Below, one piece after another: positions 5,756 to 16,028 of a stretch of 64,000 nt of DNA (positions are counted from its first letter, which is position 1; every line of letters begins with the position of its first letter). The DNA is from Niabella beijingensis (lineage in GTDB: Bacteria > Bacteroidota > Bacteroidia > Chitinophagales > Chitinophagaceae). Location of the stretch: assembly GCF_020034665.1 (NCBI RefSeq), contig NZ_JAIQDI010000001.1:3769597-3833596 (forward strand), read 5' to 3'. The position numbers were made by a program, and so were the translations under genes. Below the pieces are notes generated by a model, which was given only the letters and a program-made list of their open reading frames with translations, did no database searches and was not told the DNA's origin.

Positions 5756-6171
5756 CTACGGTGTAACGGTCTTTTGAGACCGCTTCCGGTTTCCCAGGTA
5801 AAGCACCAGCGCTATCATACCAAACGTAGTTTCGATGGTGAGCCAGTTGCTGCCAAAGCTGCCCAGGGATCCGTTAGCCCAAATAGTAACAAGCCTTGAC
5901 AGTGCATACAGCAGCCAGAACAGGCTCAGGAAAAGCAATGCAAGTGTCAGGTTCCTGCGCATCGCATAGATCAATACGGCGATCACCGAAACGCCCACAC
6001 CGCCCCATATACGCCCCTGATGGAACTTAATGCATCGGTATTGTTCAGCGTTACATGCACCAGGTCCATAACCGACTGCGGATTGTACCAGGCCATTGCC
6101 GCAACCCATGCAAGGCTCAATGCAGAAATACAAACAAACCCATAACCGGCATAACTGAATATTTTTTTCAT
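5756..6171 (-). pseudogene. DUF4345-type integral membrane protein, disrupted by one frameshift
   Basis: Two overlapping minus-strand frames together make one protein. The first part begins MKKIFSYAGYGFVCISALSL at 6171 and runs through NPQSVMDLVHV and SSIRGVYG. The second continues VGVSVIAVLIYAMRRNLTL, then LYALSRLVTIWANGSLGSFG and WLTIETTFGMIALVLYLG. The order and the motifs (NTDALSSIRGVYG, LTIETTF) are those of DUF4345 small membrane proteins with four helices. Adding a single G to the GGGG run (plus-strand CCCC at 6003-6006) restores the whole frame. The rest is intact, so a sequencing error in a homopolymer is as likely as a true pseudogene. Confidence 0.75.
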
Positions 6172-6302: not shown

Positions 6303-6575
6303 CGCGAAGCAGCACTAAGATGATTTTGTTCTTTGTGTTTCTTGGTGCCTTCCTGTCTTCGTGGTTTACAGCGGTGCTGGTATTTGCCACAAAGGCACAA
6401 AGGCGCGAAGCAGCACTAAGGTGATTTTATTCTTCGTGTTTCTTAGTGCCTTCCTGTCTTCGTGGTTTACAGCGGTGCTGGTGTTTGCCACAAAGGTACA
6501 AAGGCGCGCAGCAGCACTAAGGTGATTTTATTCTTTGTGTTTATTGGTGCCTTCCTGTCTTTGTGGCTCGTTTTT
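6303..6575. repeat. Three tandem copies of a 101-bp intergenic repeat
   Basis: Units begin at 6303, 6404 and 6505, each with CGCG(A/C)AGCAGCACTAAG, followed by a GATTTT..TTC and GTGTTT..GGTGCCTTCCTGTCTT segment; the third is incomplete. The spacing is exactly 101 bp both times and the units differ at only a few bases, so expansion is recent. Parts are mutually complementary (CCACAAAGGC against GTGCCTT and CGTGG), giving hairpin potential. It resembles the dispersed intergenic elements with accacgaag/cacaaagg words seen in many bacterial genomes. An open frame across it (6462-6695) is not a gene. Confidence 0.8.
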
Positions 6576-6620
6576 CCCGTAGCTACGATCGCTTTGTGGG
6601 TAGCGCGTCATGTTGCTGGC

Positions 6621-6918: not shown

Positions 6919-6952
6919 AAAAAGGTTGACTTGTTATTCAAATCAACCTTTT
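6919..6952 (-). terminator. Terminator of the crRNA-like RNA
   Basis: The stem pairs 6920-6933 with 6939-6952 (AAAAGGTTGA-x-TTG against CAA-x-TCAACCTTTT, one mismatch) around a 5-nt loop. On the minus strand it ends in TTTTT. It starts three nucleotides after the 16-nt repeat stub, which is what defines that stub as the end of a short transcript. Confidence 0.75.
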
Positions 6953-7095
6953 GAGAAAGCAATTCACAACGCTCCAAATAAATATTTGAATTAATTTGAG
7001 GTTGAAAAAAGTTACAAACAATAAAGCACCCTTGGGAGAAACAATAGGTAGGGTTTGGACGCCTACCCCAAAAATTTGCAACTTTTTGTCTGTTT
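6919..7095 (-). ncRNA. Candidate stand-alone crRNA-like RNA aimed at the cas9 promoter
   Basis: Read on the minus strand, the unit has four parts. First is a structured 5' domain: an outer stem 7087-7075 with 7018-7006 (13 positions, one mismatch) enclosing an inner GGTAGG/CCTACC hairpin. Second is a 30-nt guide, 7000 to 6971, ending ATTTATTTGGAGC. Third is GTTGTGAATTGCTTTC (6970-6955), identical to the first 16 nt of the array repeat in crRNA orientation. Fourth is an intrinsic terminator. The repeat stub can pair with the tracrRNA anti-repeat just as array crRNAs would. The last 12 guide nt equal 7122-7133 in the cas9 promoter. The 5' end is uncertain: one promoter-like element (TTG-N23-TATCTTTA) would start it near 7095, and TAACTTTT at 7014-7007 would start it at about the guide. 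The sequence architecture is seen directly; expression and regulation are inferred. Confidence 0.7.
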
Positions 7096-7101
7096 GCAGT
7101 A

Positions 7102-7135
7102 TAAAGATAATAAAAATTTTTTTTATTTGGAGCAA
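7102..7135 (-). promoter_or_regulatory. Candidate divergent promoter for the crRNA-like RNA
   Basis: The minus strand has TTG (7135-7133), 23 nt, then TATCTTTA (7109-7102), one base off the Bacteroidota -7 consensus TAnnTTTG. Its -33 box touches the -33 box of the cas9 promoter and the seed-match site, so the two promoters overlap back to back. A closer alternative is TAACTTTT at 7014-7007. Confidence 0.4.
7122..7133 (+). promoter_or_regulatory. 12-nt seed match of the crRNA-like RNA in the cas9 promoter
   Basis: TTTATTTGGAGC here is identical to the last 12 nt of the 30-nt guide at 7000-6971 (minus strand). The identity ends exactly at the guide/repeat junction. The next ten plus-strand bases, AAGTCCTATT, would hold the PAM. 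Upstream of the 12 nt the match falls to scattered identities, too few for Cas9 cleavage but in the range of known Cas9 self-repression by partial guides. Confidence 0.7.
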
Positions 7136-7156
7136 GTCCTATTTTTTGTAATTTTG
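7126..7156 (+). promoter_or_regulatory. cas9 operon promoter (TTTG-N19-TAATTTTG)
   Basis: TTTG at 7126-7129, 19 bp, then TAATTTTG at 7149-7156: a full match to the Bacteroidota housekeeping promoter (-33 TTTG, -7 TAnnTTTG). Transcription would start near 7162, giving a cas9 leader of about 280 nt that contains the antisense of the tracrRNA gene. I found no equally good promoter closer to the cas9 ATG. Confidence 0.6.
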
Positions 7157-7203
7157 TGTATAGTGATTCCTTTAATTTTTAAGCAATAGCGTTGGTTGAA
7201 ACA

Positions 7204-7295
7204 TAAAAAGGCTCCACGGAGTACGCAGAGCTAAGAAATTCTTCGGCTTATAGCCTTATTGTGAATTGTCTTTCAAAAACGAATATACAAAGGAA
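7204..7295 (-). ncRNA. tracrRNA
   Basis: The minus strand carries an anti-repeat at 7289-7259 (CGTTTTTGAAAGACAATTCA within it). It pairs with the 5' half of the crRNA-orientation repeat over TTGTGAATTG and CTTTCAA with one bulged base, and again over CGAAT. Next comes ATAAGGCTATAAGCC, a nexus-like hairpin (GGC-TATAA-GCC), then a small AAG/CTT hairpin. A terminator hairpin (GCTC...GAGC, 7232-7211) is followed by TTTTT. This order (anti-repeat, nexus, terminator) is the standard II-C plan. The 5' end is unknown; TTCCTTTG at 7295-7288 is a partial -7 box. The gene sits between cas9 and its best promoter, in antisense. Confidence 0.85.
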
Positions 7296-7444: not shown

Positions 7445-10400
7445 ATGGGCAAAATTCTGGGACTAGACCTTGGCACGAATAGTATTGGATGGTCTATTAG
7501 AGATACACAGTTGCCGGGAAACCAAACTGAGAAAGTTGGGGTTATTACTTTTAATAAAGGGGTTGGTAATAGCAAAACCGGAGAATATTCTTATGCAGCA
7601 GAGCGTACTAAAAAACGCTCTACTAGACGTTTATATCAGTCTCGGAAATATAGATTATGGGCTACGCTTGAAGTTTTAATAGCTGAAGGATATTGCCCTT
7701 TGTCGTTGGAAGGATTAAATAAATGGAGGCATTACAATAAAGAGGAAGCTCGTGAAAATAAAAATGGAGGTAGGGTTTATCCTAAAGAAGAAGTGCTTTT
7801 TGAGCGATGGATAAAAATGGATTTTAATGAAGATGGCTTGCCCGATTTTAAAAGCCCTTATCAGCTAAGAAGAGTTTTAACAGAAAAGGAATTTGATTTC
7901 AACCAGGAGGCTGAACGTTATAAATTAGGAAGAGCGCTATATCATATTGCACAACGCAGAGGATTTAAGAGTAGTAGAAAAGGTAGTGATGATATAAAAG
8001 AAAGTGTAGATGGGGCTGATATTGATTTACAATATTCAGAAAAGAAAAAGAACAAAGAGATAATTGCCCAATTTGAAAAATATCCACAAGCAAAAACCAT
8101 TGGTGCCTTGTTCGCCTATTTGGAAGATGATGGGATTCGTATTCGCGAAAATATGGCACAGTATGCCATACGTGAAAATTATAAGGAAGAAATCAACCAA
8201 ATCTTTAAAATCCAGAATCTTTCTTTTGCCAGCCTGTTATACAAAGGCCTGGTAGAAACCGGAAAAAATAAAAACGATGGTGCTATTTTTTACAAACGCC
8301 CATTGCGTTCTCAAAAAGGTTTGATTGGACTATGTACTTTGGAACAGGAAACACGAATTGATCCCAAGACAAAAAAATCTTTCCAGGTTGGCAAGTATCG
8401 TGCTCCAATTAGTCATCCAAGCTTTGAATTATTCAGAGCCTGGCAATTTTTAAATAATATAAAGTTTAAAGAGGAGAACAATAAAAACAGTACTTGGCAG
8501 CCATTGGGTTTGGAGTTGAAAAAAGAAATTCTCGAAGAGAAATTTTTCAGAAAATCTAAAGCATATTTTCCTTTTTCGGAAATAGTAGATATAATAAAAA
8601 AGAAAGGCCTCAGATGGGTATTAAATTATAAACCCAAGCAAACTGTAACCGGTTGCCCGGTTTCGGCAAGATTGAAAGATATTTTTGGTGATGATTATCT
8701 CAATGTAAAGATTGACAAATTGCCATCACCTAAACAAAAGAAAAACTATTATGATATCTATGATATTTGGCATGTTCTATTTTCATTTGAAGACCAAGAG
8801 TTTGTTGCAGCGTTTGCATCAGAAAAACTGAAATTAGATGAAGAGAAGGCAAAACAATTTGTATTTGCCTGGAATGCAATGCCTGTGGGTTATGGAATGT
8901 TAAGCATTAACGCTATTGAAAAAATCAACCGTTTCTTGTTTAAAGGGATACAATACACAGAAGCTGTATTACTGGCTAATTTGCCGAGTTTAGTGGGCGA
9001 GGATATTTGGATTGAGAACGAAGCTACATTTTTGCAGAACATTGATGATATCATCAGAGAAAACAGAAGCGAAAAGCATATTATCCAAATCATTAATAGC
9101 TTAGTAGCAAAGTATAAAAGCCTAGACCAAAAGTTCGGCTATAAAGATGATGCTTATGCTTTAGATGGTAGTGATGTACAGGATATAACAGATGCTATCT
9201 TGGAACACTATGGAGAGAGTGTTTGGCTGTCAAAAGAAAAAGCAGAAGCAGATAGGATTTTCTCCACTGTTAAAGATTGTTACCAGGCATTTTTCAAAAC
9301 CATAGGGCTTGAACGTGTAAATCTTGATGGAGAAAGACATTTCTTAGTTTCTTCAAATGGGAAGAATTATTACAAAGCAGATTCTGGTTTTTACAAACAA
9401 CCAAAACTTAAAGATACTTTAGCTGCATACTCTGTTAAGGTTTTGAAAGTTGATATTTCTAAGCTGAAAAAAATTTATCATGCATCAGATATCAGTATAT
9501 ATCCACCTGCAATGCCTGATGAAAATGGTGAAATAAAAATGGGTAGTCCCCAAACTGGTTCATTTAAGAACCCTATGGCAATGCGTACATTACAGGAATT
9601 GAAAAAATTACTGAATTATCTGATAGAAACGAATCAGGTTGACTCAGATGCCCGCGTTGTTGTAGAAGTAGCCCGTCAACTAAACGATGCCAATAAACGT
9701 TGGGCGATTGAGGCCTGGCAGCGGCAAAGAGAGGCTGAGAATATGGAATTTGCTACTGCGATAGATGAACTAGTCAAACAAGAAGGAGCCGAGGCAAACA
9801 GCAAGAGTGAAGCGGATATTGACAAAATGCGTCTTTGGTATGAGCAGAACGGGGAAGAGTCTGTTCCCGAAATTTCCGAAACAAAAAAAGAGATTAAAGG
9901 CATTCGTTGGACAGAAAATAAAAAACAATCGTATAAGGATATTACAACAAAGAAGACTGCAATCGAAAAATATCGCCTGTGGCGCGAGCAAAATTGTATT
10001 TGCATTTATACGGGAAAGCCAATCGGTGTAAGCGATTTATTTAATACCAATATAATAGATTTTGAGCACACTTTGCCGCGTAGTAAATCTTTTGATAACT
10101 CTTTAGCTAATAAAACGGTAGCTTTTATGGATTTCAACCGAACCATAAAAAAGAACAAAATCCCTTCTCAGTTATCTAAAGAGCAGTACGAATTAGTTCT
10201 GAAAAATATTAAGCTTTGGGAAGAGAAAATTGAGCGTATCAAACAACAAATAGATTTCTGGCAAACGAAATCAAAAAAGGCAGCTGATAAACAATGGAAA
10301 GATGATGCTATCAGGCAAAAGCATCTTTGGAAGATGGAGTTGGAATATTGGAGTAGTAAAGTAGAACGATTTAAAATACAGGAGATTACTTCCGGGTTTA

Positions 10401-11779
10401 AAAATAGCCAGTTGATAGATACTCAGCTGATTTCTAAATATGCACTACATTATCTGAAAACTTTCTTTGAAAAAGTAGATGTGCAGAAAGGAGAAGTAAC
10501 GGCAATTTTCAGGAAAATTTATGCTATTCAACCGCAGAATTTTGATGAGAAAAAAGACCGAAGTAAACATTCTCATCACGCAAAAGACGCAACAGTATTG
10601 ACGCTGATCCCGCAAGCTGCAAAAAGGGAAGAAATTCTGAAAGAATATTTTGAAACTTTAGAAAATGGTTTAAAATTCCAAACTATAAAGCCGTATGCTA
10701 CATTTAATGTAAACTCAATTTTTGAAATTGACGACAAGGTGCTCATCAACAGTTTGAATAACATTCAATTTCTATCGAAGGCCAAAAGGAAAGTTCGCAA
10801 AAGAGGAAAAGTGCAATTAATTGAAGGGACTAACAAAGAGAAAATTGCTACTGGAGATAGCGTTCGTGGGCAGTTACATCAGGAAACATTTTACGGTGCT
10901 ATTAAGCCTGCCAAATTGGATGAAGCCGGTAAAATGCAGAAAGATGAAAATGGTAATTTTATTCAGGAGGATAAGCTAAGGTTTACTGTTCGCGTTCAAT
11001 TTCAGTATAAGGCTAAACCTGATGTTCCGGGCTTTAAGACCTGGGAGGAAATTGAAAAACAGGTAGTAGATGAAGGTTTAAAAAGGCAGATAAAACAACA
11101 AATAGATAATGTGGGTGGGGTGAAAGAAGCTTTCGATGAAGGGATTTATATGTTTGATAAGAAGGGGAATAAAGTTAATAAAATCCGGCATATACGTGTA
11201 TGGGCAAGCGTGTCTGAACCATTGCCGGTTAAGAAACATACTTATCTTTCTTCAAAAGACTACAAGCAGCACTATTATGCAGCTAATGCAACCAATAGCT
11301 ATTTTGCATTGTATGAAGACAAGGAGAGAACAAAAAAAGACTTTGATTTCAGAAACCTAATGCAAGTCGCTCAGTCTTTGTCAGTTGAAAATATTGAAAG
11401 TGAAAAAGATTTGTTTACACCATTCATTACTATCAAAAAAGGAAAGACAGAAAAGCAGTTAGAGTTAAAATATATCCTTAATCCCGGAGCAAGAATTATC
11501 TTTTTAAAAGAAAATGAAACTAAAAATGAATTGAACGAGGCTGATTTTTTCAAGCGATTGTATATATATACGAACTTCGAGAAAAATGGGAGTTCTGCGA
11601 GGCTTAATTTTAGATTCCACATGGAGGCTCGTAGTAAAATTGAAGAATCGTATGTTGAATCTGAAGTAGATTGGGAAAATCCTAAGCCAACATTACGATT
11701 CGGCTATGCGAAATATGATTTTTTAGTTGAAGGGTACGATTTCATTATAGCGATGGACGGTACGATTAAACTAAAGTAA
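7445..11779 (+). CDS. cas9: CRISPR-associated endonuclease Cas9, type II-C
   Basis: This 1444-residue effector uses a crRNA:tracrRNA duplex to cut DNA. RuvC-I is ILGLDLGTNSIGWS with Asp8. The Arg-rich bridge helix follows (AAERTKKRSTRRLYQSRKYR, about 58-77). RuvC-II is VVVEVARQLND with Glu741. The HNH domain has CIYTGKPIG and DFEHTLPRSKSFDNSLANK with His875. RuvC-III is HSHHAKDATVLTL with His1045 and Asp1048. All catalytic residues are present, so it should be active. Size and gene order (cas9-cas1-cas2, no csn2 or cas4) put it in II-C. Its DNA is more AT-rich than cas1/cas2 next door: 21 of 60 G+C in the line at 7921 against 30 of 60 at 12241. Its stop is one base before the cas1 ATG. Confidence 0.98.
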   Translation: MGKILGLDLGTNSIGWSIRDTQLPGNQTEKVGVITFNKGVGNSKTGEYSYAAERTKKRSTRRLYQSRKYRLWATLEVLIAEGYCPLSLEGLNKWRHYNKEEARENKNGGRVYPKEEVLFERWIKMDFNEDGLPDFKSPYQLRRVLTEKEFDFNQEAERYKLGRALYHIAQRRGFKSSRKGSDDIKESVDGADIDLQYSEKKKNKEIIAQFEKYPQAKTIGALFAYLEDDGIRIRENMAQYAIRENYKEEINQIFKIQNLSFASLLYKGLVETGKNKNDGAIFYKRPLRSQKGLIGLCTLEQETRIDPKTKKSFQVGKYRAPISHPSFELFRAWQFLNNIKFKEENNKNSTWQPLGLELKKEILEEKFFRKSKAYFPFSEIVDIIKKKGLRWVLNYKPKQTVTGCPVSARLKDIFGDDYLNVKIDKLPSPKQKKNYYDIYDIWHVLFSFEDQEFVAAFASEKLKLDEEKAKQFVFAWNAMPVGYGMLSINAIEKINRFLFKGIQYTEAVLLANLPSLVGEDIWIENEATFLQNIDDIIRENRSEKHIIQIINSLVAKYKSLDQKFGYKDDAYALDGSDVQDITDAILEHYGESVWLSKEKAEADRIFSTVKDCYQAFFKTIGLERVNLDGERHFLVSSNGKNYYKADSGFYKQPKLKDTLAAYSVKVLKVDISKLKKIYHASDISIYPPAMPDENGEIKMGSPQTGSFKNPMAMRTLQELKKLLNYLIETNQVDSDARVVVEVARQLNDANKRWAIEAWQRQREAENMEFATAIDELVKQEGAEANSKSEADIDKMRLWYEQNGEESVPEISETKKEIKGIRWTENKKQSYKDITTKKTAIEKYRLWREQNCICIYTGKPIGVSDLFNTNIIDFEHTLPRSKSFDNSLANKTVAFMDFNRTIKKNKIPSQLSKEQYELVLKNIKLWEEKIERIKQQIDFWQTKSKKAADKQWKDDAIRQKHLWKMELEYWSSKVERFKIQEITSGFKNSQLIDTQLISKYALHYLKTFFEKVDVQKGEVTAIFRKIYAIQPQNFDEKKDRSKHSHHAKDATVLTLIPQAAKREEILKEYFETLENGLKFQTIKPYATFNVNSIFEIDDKVLINSLNNIQFLSKAKRKVRKRGKVQLIEGTNKEKIATGDSVRGQLHQETFYGAIKPAKLDEAGKMQKDENGNFIQEDKLRFTVRVQFQYKAKPDVPGFKTWEEIEKQVVDEGLKRQIKQQIDNVGGVKEAFDEGIYMFDKKGNKVNKIRHIRVWASVSEPLPVKKHTYLSSKDYKQHYYAANATNSYFALYEDKERTKKDFDFRNLMQVAQSLSVENIESEKDLFTPFITIKKGKTEKQLELKYILNPGARIIFLKENETKNELNEADFFKRLYIYTNFEKNGSSARLNFRFHMEARSKIEESYVESEVDWENPKPTLRFGYAKYDFLVEGYDFIIAMDGTIKLK

Positions 11780-11780
11780 T

Positions 11781-13030
<1,250 letters not shown>

Positions 13031-13176: not shown

Positions 13177-16028
13177 GTTGTCAAAGACCAAAGGTAATTC
13201 GAAAATTGAAAGCAATTCACAACCCATCCTGATAAGCAGCAACAGGTTGTATAGTTGTCAAAGACCAAAGGTAATTCGAAAATTGAAAGCAATTCACAAC
13301 TATGCAAGACTTTATGAAGCGCTTGCGTTAGTTGTCAAAGACCAAAGGTAATTCGAAAATTGAAAGCAATTCACAACAGATACCATGTTGGGGAACCAGT
13401 GGCCGAAGTTGTCAAAGACCAAAGGTAATTCGAAAATTGAAAGCAATTCACAACTGTTTGCGCCGCCTGGACTGAATACGCGGGTTGTCAAAGACCAAAG
13501 GTAATTCGAAAATTGAAAGCAATTCACAACCCAATTACCAAAGCTATCACAAAAAGGAAAGTTGTCAAAGACCAAAGGTAATTCGAAAATTGAAAGCAAT
13601 TCACAACACCTACACGAAACAATTGCTTTCAACGATGTTGTCAAAGACCAAAGGTAATTCGAAAATTGAAAGCAATTCACAACCTTTGGCCGGTACACCT
13701 ACAAAGAAACGGAGTTGTCAAAGACCAAAGGTAATTCGAAAATTGAAAGCAATTCACAACTACTATCTTCAGTGAAGACATTATGAACAAGTTGTCAAAG
13801 ACCAAAGGTAATTCGAAAATTGAAAGCAATTCACAACTGCGCGGCCCCCGGACCCCCCGCGGGTGTAGTTGTCAAAGACCAAAGGTAATTCGAAAATTGA
13901 AAGCAATTCACAACCCTAATGTCTGGATTTGATGAAAGAAAAGGGTTGTCAAAGACCAAAGGTAATTCGAAAATTGAAAGCAATTCACAACAGTAGCCTA
14001 TTTGGACAAAAAAGATGTAGGGTTGTCAAAGACCAAAGGTAATTCGAAAATTGAAAGCAATTCACAACTAGACAGGAATATTCCTCAAAAAATTAAAGTT
14101 GTCAAAGACCAAAGGTAATTCGAAAATTGAAAGCAATTCACAACTAAAATTTGTCACCTGGGTTATTTTTAGCGTTGTCAAAGACCAAAGGTAATTCGAA
14201 AATTGAAAGCAATTCACAACGGAAGACGCTGGATTTATCGAAATAAGATTGTTGTCAAAGACCAAAGGTAATTCGAAAATTGAAAGCAATTCACAACACA
14301 GGCCAAACGGTTGTTAAGAATCAACAAGTTGTCAAAGACCAAAGGTAATTCGAAAATTGAAAGCAATTCACAACTCTAGCTGGCAAAGGAACTGGTGTTG
14401 CTACGTTGTCAAAGACCAAAGGTAATTCGAAAATTGAAAGCAATTCACAACATTACACCGCTTGAATATGCGAAAGAGAAGTTGTCAAAGACCAAAGGTA
14501 ATTCGAAAATTGAAAGCAATTCACAACGGGTAGCACCGGTGCTGCTCTTAAGGCTATGTTGTCAAAGACCAAAGGTAATTCGAAAATTGAAAGCAATTCA
14601 CAACCGCAATAGCGTAATACTTTGCAAAATTTTTGTTGTCAAAGACCAAAGGTAATTCGAAAATTGAAAGCAATTCACAACTTAGGATTGTCCAATCCGG
14701 TTAATTCCTTGTTGTCAAAGACCAAAGGTAATTCGAAAATTGAAAGCAATTCACAACTCCCGGAACTACTGGTGGTTATATTCGTGTTGTCAAAGACCAA
14801 AGGTAATTCGAAAATTGAAAGCAATTCACAACAGCAGTGAAACGGGTGCTGAGTTGATGGGAGTTGTCAAAGACCAAAGGTAATTCGAAAATTGAAAGCA
14901 ATTCACAACTCCCGGAACTACTGGTGGTTATATTCGTGTTGTCAAAGACCAAAGGTAATTCGAAAATTGAAAGCAATTCACAACAGCAGTGAAACGGGTG
15001 CTGAGTTGATGGGAGTTGTCAAAGACCAAAGGTAATTCGAAAATTGAAAGCAATTCACAACTCCCGGAACTACTGGTGGTTATATTCGTGTTGTCAAAGA
15101 CCAAAGGTAATTCGAAAATTGAAAGCAATTCACAACAGCAGTGAAACGGGTGCTGAGTTGATGGGAGTTGTCAAAGACCAAAGGTAATTCGAAAATTGAA
15201 AGCAATTCACAACCGTTTATGAGTACTACTATTGATTATGCGCGTTGTCAAAGACCAAAGGTAATTCGAAAATTGAAAGCAATTCACAACCAGGAATCTT
15301 TGAATAACCTTCAGCGTCTAGTTGTCAAAGACCAAAGGTAATTCGAAAATTGAAAGCAATTCACAACGGTGTTGCTACTGGAAAAGTTAAGCGTTATGTT
15401 GTCAAAGACCAAAGGTAATTCGAAAATTGAAAGCAATTCACAACTACCGACTATGAAGATTTCAAAAACAAATAGTTGTCAAAGACCAAAGGTAATTCGA
15501 AAATTGAAAGCAATTCACAACCTATTTCCCTTAGATAGCCAAACAGGATGCGTTGTCAAAGACCAAAGGTAATTCGAAAATTGAAAGCAATTCACAACCC
15601 AGGGATCTGAACATAATGCTCTTTGACGTTGTCAAAGACCAAAGGTAATTCGAAAATTGAAAGCAATTCACAACTACCGAGTACACGCAAAGCAGCGGGT
15701 TACAGTTGTCAAAGACCAAAGGTAATTCGAAAATTGAAAGCAATTCACAACTACCGAGTACACGCAAAGCAGCGGGTTACAGTTGTCAAAGACCAAAGGT
15801 AATTCGAAAATTGAAAGCAATTCACAACGTCTACGGCTTGGGGCGCAATGCGAAAGCTGTTGTCAAAGACCAAAGGTAATTCGAAAATTGAAAGCAATTC
15901 ACAACGGCGGCACAGGGATTGCCTACAAAATCTGGTTGTCAAAGACCAAAGGTAATTCGAAAATTGAAAGCAATTCACAACATAAACCCTGAAACAATTA
16001 AGTAATATGAAGTTGTCAAAGACCAAAG
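13177..16028 (-). CRISPR. CRISPR array: 37 complete 47-bp repeats plus one truncated repeat, 37 spacers
   Basis: Complete repeats run from 13177-13223 to 15935-15981 and look identical throughout. On the plus strand they begin GTTGTCAAAGACCAAAGG and end GAAAGCAATTCACAAC. Spacers are 28-30 bp. A 38th repeat keeps only its first 17 bp (16012-16028). The tracrRNA anti-repeat fits the reverse complement, so crRNAs are read from the minus strand, right to left, convergent with cas9. Spacers at 14758, 14910 and 15062 are the same 28-mer; those at 14833, 14985 and 15137 the same 30-mer; those at 15675 and 15752 are identical. That leaves 32 distinct spacers. One spacer (13838-13867) is unusually GC-rich. 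No spacer has an obvious perfect target in this window. Confidence 0.99.
13189..13196 (-). promoter_or_regulatory. TAnnTTTG box inside each CRISPR repeat (first repeat shown)
   Basis: In crRNA orientation every repeat contains TACCTTTG at repeat positions 28-35, a perfect Bacteroidota -7 box. Possible -33 TTG boxes lie at positions 2-4 (23-nt spacing) and 9-11 (16 nt). A start 5-7 nt downstream would fall about 5 nt before the spacer. This copy is in the leftmost repeat; the same box recurs in all 37 complete repeats. Confidence 0.45.

Follow-up and report, generated by a model that had tools for sequence, protein, structure and literature searches.

The window analysed here, a 64,000-nucleotide stretch of the Niabella beijingensis genome, very probably encodes on its minus strand a dedicated crRNA-like guide RNA which, together with Cas9 and tracrRNA, would bind the shared promoter zone of cas9 and the RNA gene without cutting it and would repress transcription from there. 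The 16-nt piece of CRISPR repeat carried by this RNA (the stub) would pair with the tracrRNA and so load the RNA into Cas9, and the seed, 12 nt long in the window, would bind the -33 zone common to the divergent cas9 and RNA promoters, next to a candidate PAM. Pairing that stops or bulges after 8-12 bp would leave Cas9 bound without cutting and transcription blocked, and, by analogy with CreR RNAs, repression would be lifted when Cas9 is scarce, busy with array crRNAs or inhibited.

The crRNA-like RNA gene in its II-C locus

The locus is of type II in its II-C form, comprising, on the plus strand, cas9 (7445-11779; TIGR01865, E 1.2e-104), cas1 (11781-12689; TIGR03639, E 1.8e-91) and cas2 (12692-13030; TIGR01573, E 3.5e-22), and a CRISPR array (13177-15981) of 37 repeats of 47 nt with spacers of about 30 nt, whose crRNA sense lies on the minus strand. 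Within the array, a two-spacer unit is present in three tandem copies (spacers 11-16). The predicted tracrRNA (7205-7280, minus strand), assigned from its sequence, predicted duplex and fold, is conserved in the related locus L001 of Terrimonas sp. NS-102, whose Cas9 is 83% identical to that of the window; it carries the anti-repeat GAAAGACAATTCACAAT at 7274-7258 and a terminator hairpin at about 7231-7205.

On the minus strand, beyond the cas9 promoter, the RNA gene is built in the order 5' domain, guide, 16-nt repeat stub and terminator. The guide (6971-7000), whose 30 nt are the length of an array spacer and not an RNA end from measurement, ends in the seed TTTATTTGGAGC (6982-6971) and is followed directly, exactly as an earlier note on this DNA had claimed, by GTTGTGAATTGCTTTC (6970-6955), the 16 nt with which the repeat begins when read as crRNA. 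The terminator that the same note had proposed folds as a hairpin, which is followed by a T run, at approximately 6952-6916, as seen in the sequence and in the RNA fold of 6919-7095. With at most one mismatch, the stub 16-mer occurs 38 times in the 6.59 Mb genome, 37 times in the array and once in the RNA gene. In the predicted duplex with the tracrRNA anti-repeat all 16 nt of the stub are paired, while a single tracrRNA base bulges out, and the energy is -18.1 kcal/mol versus a mean of -7.46 and a best value of -17.5 for 200 shuffled stubs. Of 103 distinct repeats, 68 have a box resembling TAnnTTTG in the half that is absent from the stub, compared with 418 of 2060 shuffles, which points to promoters within the repeats of the window array and of other arrays; internal promoters of II-C repeats are described in the available text of PMC12080349. 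Farther along, beyond the RNA gene, three direct repeats of 101 nt (the second and third 94% and 64% identical to the first) occupy 6303-6605.

The 5' domain (66 nt, 7022-7087, minus strand) is conserved in L001 and contains a hairpin of 6 bp that is kept between the two loci by two double (compensatory) changes. Because its differences fall 8/3/4 by codon position, it is not peptide-like, and a peptide encoded there was rejected. Among 394 family genomes the domain was found in two, the window's and G330 (taken as the genome of L001), and a role as family core was rejected as well. A known RNA family was not supported by any of 13 Rfam matches (E up to 5), all below gathering scores, and spread by plasmid or phage was rejected, each of 40 plasmid records having less than 60% identity; neither a relative of the window Cas9 nor the 5'-domain pattern was found in viral contigs. 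The earlier note had suggested that a separate crRNA-like gene with a structured 5' domain and its own terminator would be a distinct form; similar RNAs do recur in other loci, whereas the structured 5' domain was seen in those two of the 394 genomes.

The match on which that note had built its proposal was borne out by alignment: the last 12 nt of the guide are identical to 7122-7133 on the plus strand, and the identity ends at the guide/repeat junction, with 18 of 30 positions of guide and target matching in total. This target overlaps the -33 box of the cas9-sense promoter TTTG-N19-TAATTTTG (7126-7156, plus strand; TTTG at 7126-7129, TAATTTTG at 7149-7156), also named earlier and, among the matches listed for the 650 nt before cas9, the best-scoring one in cas9 sense; on the minus strand, TATCTTTA (7102-7109) is the candidate -7 box of the RNA gene. 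The 6.6 Mb genome holds three copies of the 12-mer, namely the guide, the target and one site within an open reading frame. Within the 630-nt region of the window, 4 of 1192 anchored positions reach a match of 12 nt, which we take to be a single inverted repeat counted from both ends and both strands, and against 96 other cas9 upstream regions the window guide never matched over more than 9 nt.

Guide and target in related loci

The same order of parts (5' domain, guide, stub and terminator) is found in L001, whose seed TGTTGTTTAAGT differs from that of the window in 6 of 12 letters and matches its own cas9 upstream region in all 12; its 12-mer has just two copies in the 6.2 Mb genome, the guide and the target. 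In L070 and L071 (Cas9 86.9% identical) the guides differ and each matches its own target, TGAGTGGTGT occurring in both guide and target of one locus and TGAGTAGTAT in both of the other. L074 and L077 (Cas9 86.3% identical) likewise have unlike guides, each with an 8-nt match to its own target; in L074 this match is followed by a bulge and by 10 more matching nucleotides, and L129 and L165 show a similar succession of seed, offset and further match (8+12 and 10+8, respectively). Such a bulge may stop full pairing and, with it, cutting. L002, the next relative, has no guide element; upstream of its cas9, at 5780-6000, there are two anti-repeat units, perhaps belonging to two tracrRNAs.

The wider survey drew its genomes from the relatives, the class and the phylum of the window. 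A scan of 137 loci for a seed of at least 8 nt matching the opposite strand upstream and followed by a stub with at most five mismatches in 16 returned 17 rows, from which 11 loci were kept (the window, L001, L086, L070, L071, L109, L067, L129, L077, L074 and L165) after three tracrRNA anti-repeats (L155, L085 and L158) and three rows with five mismatches (L126 twice and L159) had been dropped by eye. The elements of L071 and L074 were first noticed by eye, and a second set, comprising 40 loci and searched under a similar rule, contributed that of L165. None of 19 further loci had the element (rows with at most four mismatches had seeds of at most 7 nt), so that, with the window included, it is present in 11 of 156 loci (11/137 and 0/19) and absent from 145. 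Two generic repeats served for scoring wherever a locus had no usable repeat of its own, a row of L074 lying far downstream by masked bases was taken as its array, and loci with less than 200 nt upstream were left out; L147 had no cas9 ORF, no cas9 start was obtained for L201, and L069 repeats L001. L067 is a weak case, in which neither a terminator nor a -7 box was seen and the seed is palindromic.

Several controls bear on how often such elements arise by chance. Shuffled stubs gave 2.75 rows per run (20 runs) versus the 17 real rows; with a seed of at least 10 nt there were 8 real rows versus 0.55 per decoy run (20 runs), and with at most three mismatches and a seed of at least 8 nt there were 13 real rows, three of them tracrRNA anti-repeats, versus 0.1 per decoy run. 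When each guide was set against 96 foreign upstream regions, a match of at least 10 nt was reached in 2 of 768 cases versus 6 of 8 at home, where the first count leaves out the low-complexity second stub of L129 (8 of 864 with it) and the second includes L109, which entered the list through its match (5 of 7 without it). Among shuffled 16-mers with at most four mismatches, 4 of 204 decoys reached at least 10 nt versus 6 of 107 real candidates. A 6-nt stub prefix gave no enrichment at 10 nt (7/103 real, 67/1227 decoys), a 7-nt prefix gave 6/62 real versus 6/248 decoys and an 8-nt prefix 6/33 versus 5/87. The share of within-locus positions reaching the locus's own match was 0.3% in the window and L001, 0.7% in L086, 3-5% in L070, L109 and L067, and 13-18% in L129 and L077.

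The earlier note had named related loci in which the stub is kept while guide and promoter do not match as evidence that would speak against a self-repressing guide. All three related pairs still match despite their different guides, and the reading of the RNA as a guide by which Cas9 would repress its own gene is supported in this respect; on the other side, among the listed rows with a prefix of at least 10 nt or at most two mismatches (at most three in the second set and four in the 19 further loci), no convincing target was found for two stubs that are not anti-repeats, the second stub of L129 and the stub of L175. The former lies at -33, directly before cas9.

Target flanks, target placement and competing explanations

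Comparison of the flanks 3' of the targets assigns the window the candidate PAM AAGTCC (7134-7139, plus strand; ATGTCC in L001). Two flank classes, named only after the flanks had been seen, cover the 11 loci: NNRTYY in eight (AAGTCC, ATGTCC, GAGTTC, GGGTTC, GGGTTT, CAATTT, GGATTT and AGGTTC; background 0.046) and NNRAAT in three (AAAAAT, AGGAAT and TAAAAT; background 0.026); in these counts the related pairs are not independent cases. That these classes are PAM-like is partially supported by three phage protospacers. Two spacers of L086 match one Microviridae record (best E 2e-4) at 30/30 and 27/30. The flanks there, ATAGAT and GGAAAT, share NNARAT with the L086 target flank AAAAAT, and of the two GGAAAT fits NNRAAT and ATAGAT does not. 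The third is a match of an L129 spacer to Flavobacterium phage FCL-2 (27/30, E 0.5; among the matches listed, 20 of 93), whose flank TAATCT fits NNRTYY and differs at place 5 from the L129 target flank GGATTT. In the window array, one overlapping spacer pair (11 nt) leads to the flank AGTTCC; this has TCC in common with the window target flank at places 4-6, fits NNNTCC, not NNGTCC, and is regarded here as a hint in favor of the candidate PAM. The window array spacers had no match in phages, one match in plasmids that was taken as repeat-like, and none in viral contigs for the four spacer patterns searched there. The arrays of L001, L070 and L109 matched only Riemerella and Shigella phage records, also taken as repeat-like, the L077 array had one weak match and the L067 array none.

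The RNA gene diverges from cas9 in the window, L001, L070, L071, L086 and L129, where both cas9 and the RNA itself would most likely be repressed; the search for a -7 box in cas9 sense beyond the target found none of the required form in L001 and L086. In L109, L074, L077, L165 and L067 the RNA gene reads in the same direction as cas9, and in these loci cas9 would therefore be affected only if its transcription starts at the targeted promoter; in L077 and L165 the targeted promoter reads into the RNA gene, and cas9 lies farther down and may be served by another promoter. The predicted folds also fall into more than one form. In L070, L071, L109, L129 and L165 the terminator arms close a long stem that encloses guide and stub (fold z of -3.6, -5.0, -3.5, -4.4 and -6.0, respectively), the window, L001, L086, L074 and L077 have a separate hairpin after the stub, and neither arrangement was seen by eye in L067. 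In the guides of L070, L071, L074 and L077 the seed can base-pair with the 5' half of the guide, and in L070 and L071 this guide hairpin co-changes as well.

In CreTA modules the guide represses the promoter just upstream of itself, and the RNA described here resembles them in targeting the promoter just upstream of its own gene, although its effector belongs to class 2 and no toxin was identified in the window. An addiction module of this kind, in which the guide would hold down a toxic RNA or peptide encoded between promoter and guide, with repression of Cas9 secondary, is nevertheless unlikely. The order of promoter, unit and crRNA-like RNA is reportedly that of type I CreTA, and the window has a conserved 66-nt unit in the corresponding place, but this unit lacks a coding signature. 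In L165, ARAGORN calls a tRNA-Arg(TCT) at 7095-7166, after the targeted promoter and before the crRNA-like gene, and since type I CreT sequesters tRNA-UCU, according to the available text of a review, a link to CreTA-like modules is possible there. Such a module is disfavored by L070 and L071, where the gene is almost filled by its two arms, guide and stub and, with seed and guide 41-42 nt apart, has next to no space left for a toxin, and by the divergent loci, where the target is also found on the side of the gene that faces cas9.

Placement raises a second alternative, in which the match would act at the RNA level, target and guide being the stem arms of one long transcript and their co-change serving to keep the stem. 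It had to be weighed because the target is inverted and upstream of the RNA gene in every locus: this holds for 9 of 9 elements found without a strand or side condition, which alone test placement since the 137-locus scan required the opposite strand and an upstream position, and for L071 and L074 too. A stem would produce the same co-change, and the guides do fold on themselves more than array spacers (11 versus 304, mean z -0.99 versus -0.08, p 0.004). However, in 9 of 11 loci a gene-sense -7 box follows the target at a distance of 8-48 nt in the direction of the RNA gene (expected boxes 2.60 in sum), which would place the target outside the transcript and in the RNA gene's own -33 zone, and a stem predicts neither a PAM nor a match that ends at the repeat stub. 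We consider this explanation very unlikely.

It is more improbable again that the RNA regulates other host genes in trans in the manner of a scaRNA, with an incidental match at cas9. scaRNAs have been predicted in II-A and II-C systems (PMC6199352, available text), but apart from guide and target the exact 12-mer occurs in the window's genome just once, in the open frame, with the flank GGGCTA, which is not similar to the target flank, and the L001 genome has no other exact site; by the exact seed, no suitable target is found outside the CRISPR locus. A decayed array-end remnant beside cas9 with a chance match, for which the array-like dimensions of stub and guide would speak, is scarcely credible in view of the relatives that match with different letters and of the decoy and cross-locus controls.

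Relation to known guide RNAs and biological meaning

Mini-arrays encoding crlRNAs, with stand-alone repeats and spacers partly matching cas promoters, were reportedly described by Shmakov et al. in 2023, mostly in type I and V-A systems and often with two repeats. The RNA gene of the window differs from them in consisting of one partial repeat, without two repeats around a spacer. The 2025 review PMC12737573 places CreR RNAs in type I and V-A systems and the 2026 review PMC13131331 lists types I-B, I-E and V-A, and no type II CreR is named in the available text of either. Like CreR as portrayed there, the RNA found here is a stand-alone, repeat-derived crRNA-like RNA outside an array, as judged at sequence level, with a partial match to its own cas promoter and a predicted autorepression. 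Unlike CreR, it belongs to a II-C system with a type II Cas9 and not to a type I or V-A effector, needs a tracrRNA, carries a truncated 16-nt stub, has a seed of 8-12 nt and, in divergent loci, has a target common to two promoters.

In Streptococcus pyogenes, tracr-L is a long tracrRNA that acts on the II-A cas promoter (PMC11417352, available text). Both are natural guides that place Cas9, here by prediction, on a cas promoter beside a PAM, here a candidate one, and in the window too the target sequence lies in the cas promoter with short pairing; the tracr-L guide is part of the long tracrRNA, whereas here a separate crRNA-like gene stands beside a normal tracrRNA, each unit having its own terminator-like hairpin. 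As far as the available text of the sources goes, scaRNA guides Cas9 to lipoprotein genes in Francisella, a type II-B system (PMC8730458), scaRNAs are predicted in the II-C systems of Neisseria and Pasteurella (PMC6199352), and a II-C scaRNA of Neisseria acts on efeUOB (PMC13431127). The resemblance lies in a diverged repeat that pairs with the tracrRNA, as the predicted duplex of the stub does, and in a short guide-target duplex that represses without cutting (predicted here); the difference lies in the target, lipoprotein genes in Francisella and the cas9 promoter here. The terms 'Bacteroid', 'Flavobacter', 'autoregulat' and 'cas9 promoter' are absent from the main text of PMC6199352, and none of the literature matches listed, drawn mostly from outside subscription papers, describes a II-C cas9 promoter as the target of a crRNA-like RNA. 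Taken on its sequence, the RNA is best read as a type II-C counterpart of CreR RNAs and tracr-L.

With respect to the family as a whole, we lean towards a class of Bacteroidota II-C guide-RNA genes that would arise anew in each locus, when a local promoter copy is inverted before a 16-nt stub. One Cas9 site would then govern the RNA and also cas9 where the two are divergent, cutting would be averted by a bulge or mismatch once 8-12 bp have paired, and in some loci a guide hairpin may gate the seed. The place and orientation of the gene vary even within a single genus, where the compared pairs of L070, L071, L074 and L077 have Cas9 proteins 85-89% identical.

If the proposed role is true, partial guides would serve self-restraint in types I, V and II alike, and within type II such restraint would have arisen in more than one way, as the fused tracr-L and as a separate RNA. 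The loci described here would also allow direct tests of how the amount of Cas9 is set in Bacteroidota, would offer natural examples of the pairing lengths at which different Cas9 proteins may bind without cutting, and would make the regulatory site of a bacterium itself a source from which candidate PAMs can be read.
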